From: Caldimonas thermodepolymerans | GTDB lineage: Bacteria; Pseudomonadota; Gammaproteobacteria; Burkholderiales; Burkholderiaceae_C | Direction: 5' to 3' | Length of the DNA stretch: 64,000 bases | Assembly: GCF_015476235.1 (NCBI RefSeq) | Contig: NZ_CP064338.1 | Span: 310,001-374,000 of the forward strand | Shown: positions 32,914-34,113 of the stretch, piece after piece | Numbering within the stretch: position 1 is the first letter of the stretch | Layout: every line of letters starts with the position of its first letter | Translations under genes and position numbers: made by a program | The notes under the pieces: generated by a model | Databases searched by the model: none | The model's input: only the letters and a program-made list of their open reading frames with translations | What the model was told of the DNA's origin: nothing

Positions 32914-33114
32914 TTACGCGGCGGCCAGCCAGCAGGCGGTGTCGAACGCGCTGCTCATCAGCGGCATGTAGGGTGCGAAGGTCGGCGCGCTGTGCTTGGC
33001 GCGGGCCGAGGACCCCGACTTGCCGGCGTTGATCTCGCTGTTCTGGGCCACTTCATTCGCCCGCTCCCATGACCCGATTTCCTGGGAGCGGGCTACAGAA
33101 AAGAATAGAAGCAC
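32914..33114 (-). CDS. doubtful small ORF downstream of barstar gene
   Basis: A 66-codon frame whose first codons overlap the end of the barstar gene. The later part (NSEINAGKSGSSARAKHSAP, then APYMPLMSSAFDTACWLAAA) has a plausible composition but no ribosome site and no family I recognise. A strong hairpin (33059-33093) lies inside it. It may be non-coding or a gene remnant. Confidence 0.25.
   Translation of the reverse strand: MLLFFSVARSQEIGSWERANEVAQNSEINAGKSGSSARAKHSAPTFAPYMPLMSSAFDTACWLAAA
33059..33093. terminator. 11-bp hairpin directly after the barstar gene
   Basis: GCCCGCTCCCA and TGGGAGCGGGC form a perfect stem with a 13-base loop; the last base touches the barstar stop codon. On the minus strand no T-tract follows, so it may be a 3'-end stabiliser or Rho-assisted terminator of the RNase/barstar transcript. 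Confidence 0.55.
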
Positions 33115-33488
33115 CTGAAGGGGATCTTCCGTTCGGCCCAGAAATCGGCCGCGTCGCGGAACACGTCCAGCAGCTGCTCGCGCGCCTCGCGGTCGAAGCG
33201 CGGGTTGTCGGGAATCTGCTCCAGCACGACGATGAAGCCCGGCTGCGGGCCGGCCTTGTGCACCAGGTCGGTCATGCAGTCGTACAGCGCGTCGAAGTTC
33301 TTGCCGAAGTGCGGCGGGAACAGGAACGACTCCGCGATGGTTTCCAGCACGTCCTGCTTGGTCTGGGCGTTGCCCAGGTTGGCGTACAGGAAATGCTGAC
33401 CGGTGTCTTGCGCGGTCTGCATCAGGTCCTCGACGCGGAATGCGCGTATGGCCTGGACGATGTTCGGACGGACGGTCTGCAAAAGCAT
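33093..33488 (-). CDS. barstar-family ribonuclease inhibitor
   Basis: A 131-residue protein of the barstar family, cytoplasmic inhibitors that plug the active site of guanyl-specific RNases. The core FLYANLGNAQTKQDVLETIA, FPPHFGKNFDALYDCMTDL and the C-terminal strand region are characteristic. AGGGG lies 8 bases upstream of ATG 33488, which I prefer over a GTG seven codons earlier. It begins 24 bp after the stop of the secreted RNase gene on the same transcript, the expected enzyme-inhibitor arrangement, protecting the cell before the enzyme is exported. Confidence 0.9.
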   Translation of the reverse strand: MLLQTVRPNIVQAIRAFRVEDLMQTAQDTGQHFLYANLGNAQTKQDVLETIAESFLFPPHFGKNFDALYDCMTDLVHKAGPQPGFIVVLEQIPDNPRFDREAREQLLDVFRDAADFWAERKIPFRCFYSFL

Positions 33489-33512
33489 CACGATCCCCTT
33501 TTGAGTCACGAT

Positions 33513-33938
33513 TCAGTCGACGATCCGGCGAAAGCTCGCGTAGTGGTCGTCGGTGTAGTAGCAGTTGTCAGGGGTGGTCGGGATCCTGCCGCCGCAGACG
33601 ATGCGCCGGGCGCCGCGATGGCGCACGCCAGGCGTCTTCACGGTGTACTCGCGGTAGTAACCGCGCGGAGAGGCAGGCAGCAGCCGCTCGCGGTTGAAGA
33701 AGACCGTCCCGTCCTTCTCGTAAGGGAAGGGGCCTCCCTTGCGGATGAGTCGGTGGGTTTCCTGCGCCTGCCTGGGCAGCTCCGTCAACGCGACGGTGGG
33801 GAGACTGGCTGCTGCTTCCGGTACTACGCCCTTGGCAGGAGCGAGGCTCGGACTCAAGGCCGCCAGGACTGCTGCGACGACAGCGACTTTGACCTGCTGG
33901 AGCGACTGCTTCCGGACTGACCGAGCAGCGGATGCCAC
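33513..33938 (-). CDS. secreted guanyl-specific ribonuclease (RNase Sa/barnase superfamily)
   Basis: A 141-residue secreted RNase. A basic N-terminus and hydrophobic VAVVAAVLAALSPSLAPA form a Sec signal, followed by a catalytic domain of about 95 residues. It matches Streptomyces RNase Sa through FFNRERLLP, GYYREYTVKTPG (catalytic Glu), RHRGARRIVCGG (Arg) and YYTDDHYASF (His). The two mature cysteines could form a disulfide. The start is GTG 33938: the promoter at 33966-33994 lies downstream of the only upstream ATG (34007), which is thereby excluded. The barstar gene follows 24 bp later. It may serve phosphate or nucleotide scavenging, or attack on competitors. Confidence 0.9.
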   Translation of the reverse strand: MASAARSVRKQSLQQVKVAVVAAVLAALSPSLAPAKGVVPEAAASLPTVALTELPRQAQETHRLIRKGGPFPYEKDGTVFFNRERLLPASPRGYYREYTVKTPGVRHRGARRIVCGGRIPTTPDNCYYTDDHYASFRRIVD

Positions 33939-33965
33939 GGGTTTTCCCTGAAAACTGAAGGCAAG

Positions 33966-33994
33966 ATGGTATCCGTTTAGGCCTTCAGGGGCAA
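33966..33994 (-). promoter_or_regulatory. sigma-70-like promoter of the RNase/barstar operon
   Basis: On the minus strand TTGCCC (33989-33994) is followed after exactly 17 bases by TACCAT (33966-33971). Transcription would start near 33959, about 20 bases before the GTG start of the RNase. Confidence 0.6.
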
Positions 33995-34113
33995 GGTCGT
34001 GCCTCAATTTGCAGCAGTCCCCGAGTGCCCGGCAGGGAAATTTTGTGAGGGCACACTACCGCCAAACCATGCGATCCTGCACGGTGGCGTGCGCTTTTTT
34101 GCAGCACGGCTGC

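Follow-up and report, generated by a model that had tools for sequence, protein, structure and literature searches.

From our analysis of a 64,000-nucleotide stretch of Caldimonas thermodepolymerans DNA (contig NZ_CP064338.1, positions 310,001 to 374,000; hereafter the window, in whose numbering all positions are given), a minus-strand locus around 32914-33994 very probably represents a vertically inherited core locus made up of a promoter, an exported ribonuclease (RNase) of the RNase Sa type and a barstar gene in which a programmed -1 frameshift would add a tail to the inhibitor. Aligned sequences of related loci strongly support a programmed -1 frameshift in the barstar gene. We surveyed 201 genomes of one Burkholderiales family (180 of them good, 141 genera), followed gene order in 110 relatives (30 family loci and 80 GTDB loci) as far as the contig or stretch reached, and compared 116 unfused loci (105 distinct 120-nucleotide junctions), in which the tail lies in the -1 frame relative to the barstar, with 23 fused loci, in which the tail is in frame with it.

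Slip site, hairpin and tail of the barstar gene

The elements of the proposed frameshift are the following.
33093-33488, minus strand: barstar, frame-0 product of 131 amino acids, ATG start and TAG stop (PF01337, 97 bits)
33098-33110, minus strand: slippery site TTC TAT TCT TTT C of the U_UU.U class, with the slip codon TTT at 33099-33101
33059-33093, minus strand: putative stimulator hairpin of 35 nucleotides with an 11-bp stem (GCCCGCTCCCA/TGGGAGCGGGC), 5-nucleotide spacer after the slip codon
32914-33099, minus strand: -1 frame tail SVARSQ...MPLMSSAFDTACWLAAA and stop, 61 residues, predicted frameshift product of 191 amino acids

The coding signal extends beyond the barstar stop codon to 32914, and at 116 family loci the barstar ends in TAT TCT TTT CNG TAG/TGA. 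The window junction reads TTC TAT TCT TTT CTG TAG, so that frame 0 yields 131 amino acids and a -1 slip on TTT would yield SVARSQEIGSWERANEVAQNSEINAGKSGSSARAKHSAPTFAPYMPLMSSAFDTACWLAAA, a product of 191 amino acids. TAT, TCT and TTT are each present in 116 of 116 unfused loci with zero third-base variation, a position at which most neighbouring codons vary; background codon use is 26% for TTT, 21% for TAT and, among serine codons, 2.4% for TCT. A sequencing or assembly error at the barstar stop was considered and rejected, the same arrangement being found at 116 loci from many genera. The fused loci serve as natural controls: their slip codons are free (TAT, TCT and TTT in 4, 5 and 4 of 23, with mostly TAC, TCG/TCC/AGC and TTC instead), their hairpin is gone, and their proteins read FYSF-[SA]-V-[AT]-R, which is the exact product expected from a -1 slip at TTT. 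A tree of maeB puts the frameshift state into each of the two deep divisions of the family, with about seven changes between frameshift and fusion, and well-supported branches force at least three origins.

The hairpin was examined in 38 distinct sequences against 500 shuffles and slid controls. Standard pairs fill 97.8% of its pair cells, compared to 32-46% in the slid controls, and 62 cells are double-changed versus 25 in the shuffles, none of which reached as high a count (0/500); 4 of the 11 pairs show double changes. The uninterrupted stem reaches at least 10 bp in 107 of the 116 unfused loci and no more than 6 bp in 22 of the fused ones. The window hairpin folds alone at -24.5 kcal/mol and has a z of -2.5 in context. 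Rfam holds no family at the window locus, and the relatives gave just one sub-threshold, chance-like match. Three Comamonas loci (L060, L068, L070) carry a terminator-like hairpin followed by a T-run right after the barstar stop and have lost the tail.

Selection on the tail was estimated downstream of the hairpin from 33 disjoint pairs of unfused genomes, in which the ratio of nonsynonymous to synonymous differences (pN/pS) came to 0.24 for the -1 frame, against 1.31 for frame 0 and 1.72 for the +1 frame. Substitutions at codon positions 1, 2 and 3 of the -1 frame numbered 209, 171 and 527, and none of the unfused tails is interrupted by a stop before its end. Ala-Ala closes each of the 117 measured tails, within the C-terminal motif SS[AP]F[DN]xxxWLxAA-COOH; a degenerate search of the window genome for MSS[AP]F[DN] gave this tail as its sole match. 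In the predicted model of a fused relative, the barstar domain has a predicted local distance difference test score (pLDDT) mostly near 90; the tail comes out as disordered, ending in a short helix. A fold search with this model returns barstar chains at a probability of 1.0 and a target-normalised template-modelling (TM) score of about 0.7.

We propose that most ribosomes would terminate after FYSFL and release the 131-residue barstar, and that a fraction, with Phe-tRNA on the UUU of U_UUU, would slip back one base. The GC-rich hairpin 5 nucleotides downstream would help the slip, and the slipped ribosomes would continue in the -1 frame to give a barstar of 191 amino acids whose disordered tail of 61 residues ends in a short linear motif. 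In E. coli the U_UU.U tetramer is known to be prone to shifting, with stimulators that start 5-8 nucleotides downstream, and both the slip tetramer and the 5-nucleotide hairpin spacer fit these published frameshift rules (PMC4066793). Several points weigh against this reading. The site is a tetramer and not a strong X_XXY_YYZ heptamer, so its efficiency may be low; the tail is absent in the three Comamonas loci and in one further genome (L119), so that some lineages can do without it; similarity of the RNase was the basis on which most of the 80 GTDB loci were picked; and related genomes do not count as independent samples.

The shift could instead arise during transcription, where RNA polymerase slippage would put one extra U into TTTT and produce a mixed mRNA pool. 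One U added to UUUU gives exactly the fused reading FYSFSVAR, and bacteria are known to use slippage of this kind (PMC5009743, a general review). This explanation leaves aside the conservation of TAT and TCT and the hairpin at a 5-nucleotide spacing, which is typical of ribosomal stimulators. Moreover, the run is just four T, whereas bacterial transcript slippage usually requires clearly longer runs; we consider it highly improbable, and infer that the shift occurs in ribosomes. We regard it as very improbable that the tail is a separate small gene coupled to the barstar through a start codon of its own. All 92 of the 92 unfused tails checked do have some ATG, GTG or TTG before the conserved motif, 33 of them with an upstream tetramer resembling a Shine-Dalgarno (SD) sequence, but an SD-like start is missing in 59 of the 92, unfused tails keep the -1 frame open from the slip site onward, something for which a separate gene would have no use, and the fusion in about seven lineages and the invariant slip codons would be left unexplained. 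There is just as little probability that the 11-bp hairpin is merely the 3' end of the mRNA or an attenuator, as might be supposed from its beginning at the stop codon and from the ordinary terminators of Comamonas at the same place: no U-run follows the stem, coding under selection continues through and past it, and the hairpin was lost exactly in those lineages that need no shift.

The RNase-barstar pair and its inheritance

Upstream of the barstar lies the gene of its predicted target.
33513-33938, minus strand: RNase Sa-type guanyl ribonuclease, predicted exported, 141 amino acids, GTG start (PF00545; PDB RNase Sa3/Sa; catalytic residues)

A first-pass annotation, made from the window sequence alone, had described a secreted RNase Sa-like enzyme with a Glu, Arg and His catalytic set, followed after 24 bp by a cognate barstar, and these assignments held. 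The RNase, with its GTG at 33936-33938 and its stop codon at 33513-33515, matches PF00545 at 84.7 bits (cut-off 24), and among solved structures RNase Sa3 and Sa come closest (E 4e-27 to Sa3). Glu54, Arg65, Arg69 and His85 are all present in the alignment to Sa and none of them varies in 112 relatives, which supports the assignment of 33513-33938 as an RNase Sa-type guanyl RNase of predicted activity. The N-terminus, judged by eye, has a basic and hydrophobic segment ending in APA-KG that resembles a Sec signal, as the annotation had noted, and this segment implies that the RNase would be exported. The enzyme would then act in the periplasm or outside the cell, where scavenging, envelope or biofilm functions and competition are candidate roles. 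Cys74 and Cys85 (mature-domain alignment) are invariant in 112 family RNases, at a location that differs from the disulfide of RNase Sa (C7-C96); they probably pair as a clade-specific disulfide.

The barstar ATG at 33488 leaves a gap of exactly 24 bp after the RNase gene, and the solved relatives of the barstar are themselves barstars. The equivalents of barstar Asp35 and Asp39 (D47 and D51) are invariant in 111 relatives, and that of Glu76 is D/E93 in nearly all loci that carry the RNase. The predicted role of the barstar is to hold the RNase in an inactive state inside the cell until it is exported from the cytoplasm. Barstars with a similar N-terminal extension (NVVQSIRAF and NIVQSIRAF) but no tail or slip signal were seen in L128 and L159, from other families of the order, and in L159 maeB also flanks the RNase-barstar pair. 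In L009, the barstar frame is broken in its second half though the RNase is present, for which sequencing error or decay is possible.

The PF00545 RNase occurs as a single copy in 180 of the 201 family genomes (165 of the 180 good genomes, 129 of the 141 genera), and the barstar in 196 of 201 (179 of the 180 good ones). None of the 180 RNase-bearing genomes has the RNase without a barstar, all five genomes devoid of barstar are also devoid of the RNase, and 16 genomes have the barstar alone. The gene order maeB-RNase-barstar/rsmA-surA-lptD is kept across the family in the 110 relatives; this synteny and the constant company of the barstar lend support to the earlier claim of a cognate pair. 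The RNase-barstar pair is old, has been inherited vertically and belongs to the core genes of one Burkholderiales family.

The first-pass annotation had suggested that the pair was acquired, possibly as a competition weapon, on the grounds that its DNA is less GC-rich than its neighbours. The local GC of 62-64% in 500-bp windows is indeed below the 71.6% of the window, and 33 of the 60 bases at 33961-34020 are G or C (55%), as had been stated, a value so low in about 1.5% of 60-bp windows. The stretch 33961-34020, however, is intergenic promoter DNA, and with maeB and rsmA from the same loci as the reference, the GC of RNase and barstar falls below that of maeB in nearly all relatives, among which the window genome is mid-distribution. 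The same offset from maeB is seen in relatives, so the low GC belongs to the locus itself and is the norm in the family, not a mark of acquisition. The synteny comparison that the annotation had itself named as a check refutes horizontal acquisition, the order being conserved family-wide with a single copy, and the patchy distribution and lost synteny expected of an acquired interbacterial weapon were not found. A core gene that is near-universal and single-copy hardly looks like a weapon gained recently, and we regard recent horizontal gain of the pair as extremely improbable. PADLOC gave no match.

Putative promoter and leader of the RNase-barstar locus

Four further elements precede the RNase gene.
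33939-33948, minus strand: leader element GGGAAAACCC, abutting the start codon
33966-33971, minus strand: putative -10 box TACCAT
33989-33994, minus strand: putative -35 box TTGCCC of the RNase-barstar promoter
34000-34016, minus strand: imperfect palindrome TGCTGCAAATTGAGGCA, possible operator, just upstream of the -35 box

The -35/-10 pair with its 17-bp spacing had been recognized before and is confirmed; the -10 box lies 27 nucleotides before the GTG and not 20 as first given. A generic promoter scan misses the pair, which has 8 of 12 consensus bases against a threshold of 9. Nevertheless, it is more than chance, because both boxes are kept at the same place in same-clade relatives (cTTGAg, cTTGtg or cTTGcc for the -35, TA[CAG]CAT for the -10). 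A TGC..GGCA element like the palindrome is found at the same place in many relatives and is a candidate regulator site.

The leader element has the form GGG-(A/T)4-CCC in 122 of the 129 RNase-bearing family leaders, where it sits near the transcript start or the ribosome-binding site. The 3.86-Mb genome has a single copy of the longer motif TTCAGGGN4CCCGTG, at the RNase leader, and in each of ten relatives searched with CGGGTWWACCCG one site was the RNase leader. The element looks locus-specific; a genome-wide regulon based on GGGTWWACCC was rejected, as exact matches number just 1-3 per genome. Flank pairing exceeds that of independent columns only slightly; the element may act as an RNA hairpin or as a DNA operator. 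GGG-N4-CCC persists upstream of the barstar in 10 of the 16 genomes that have no RNase. In Comamonas L060 and L070 a different inverted repeat (TGCGGTAAGACCGCA in L070) replaces GGG-(A/T)4-CCC.

Lone barstars and the role of the tail

The 16 genomes with a barstar alone are partly clustered, leaving only 13 non-redundant ones. Where enough sequence was available, the lone barstar lies at the same place, beside maeB and/or rsmA, and L117 retains a remnant of the RNase; RNase presence changes about seven times on the maeB tree. The ratio of nonsynonymous to synonymous substitution rates (dN/dS) of lone barstars is 0.01-0.09 in three genus pairs, which is indicative of purifying selection. In the RNase-binding stretch (residues 36-56), conserved residues are retained at 68% in the orphans versus 94.5% in equally diverged barstars with an RNase, whereas in residues 57-107 retention is 91% versus 88%. 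Because orphans remain under purifying selection and relaxation is mainly confined to the RNase-binding segment, these data suggest that the barstar may have a second role beyond RNase inhibition.

Conceivably, orphan barstars are kept solely as immunity to the RNases of neighbours, with no second function. The equivalents of Asp35 and Asp39 are kept in 15 and 14 of the 16 orphans, and immunity would also account for the purifying selection. The drop in retention at residues 36-56, with none at 57-107, and the tail, which is kept in 15 of the 16, argue against it, although the losses are few and the lineages partly clustered; we doubt this explanation but give it real weight. Our own proposal, a tentative one that falls short of even probability, is a barstar with two jobs, in which frameshifting would set the ratio of plain to tailed forms, the tail motif would feed a protease or dock a conserved partner, and an old second job would be kept after RNase loss. 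The tail may serve as a degron-like turnover signal or as a docking motif. In fused species that have the RNase every barstar bears the tail, so its effect cannot simply be destruction of the inhibitor. One candidate is turnover by ClpXP, as the invariant -AA end recalls the degron of the ssrA (transfer-messenger RNA) tag, ANDERFALAA in this genome; the barstar tail ends in WLxAA with Leu at -4, and ssrA in LAA with Leu at -3. The other candidate is docking to a partner, tied to a role independent of the RNase.

The locus resembles the barnase-barstar and RNase Sa-barstar pairs (PF00545/PF01337; PDB 1brs, 1ay7) in its predicted exported guanyl RNase and intracellular inhibitor of barstar fold with conserved key residues, but the family barstar differs from known ones in a conserved N-terminal extension (R.NIVQSIRA) and in the -1 frame tail. 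As in type II toxin-antitoxin systems, the toxin is never found without the inhibitor and the inhibitor outlasts toxin loss; here, however, the toxin gene comes first, the toxin would be exported, the locus is a core single-copy chromosomal one and there is no DNA-binding antitoxin. The U_UU.U tetramer, 5-nucleotide spacer and GC-rich covarying stem-loop are like those of known bacterial -1 frameshifting (Z_ZZN tetramers and X_XXZ_ZZN heptamers; dnaX, IS3, IS911), with the difference that a C-terminal tail would be added to a toxin inhibitor. In the literature searched, which lacked most subscription journals, recoding was not described for any barstar or ribonuclease inhibitor gene; this does not prove novelty.

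Barnase-barstar is among the best-studied protein pairs, and here a family-wide core gene carries a textbook frameshift signal with natural controls, namely repeated in-frame fusions in which the signal has decayed. If the frameshift is real, the few programmed frameshifts known from bacteria would be joined by one in a conserved cellular gene, the annotated barstars of the family would be about 60 residues too short, their tail having been missed by annotation, and the role of barstars that have no partner RNase would become directly testable.
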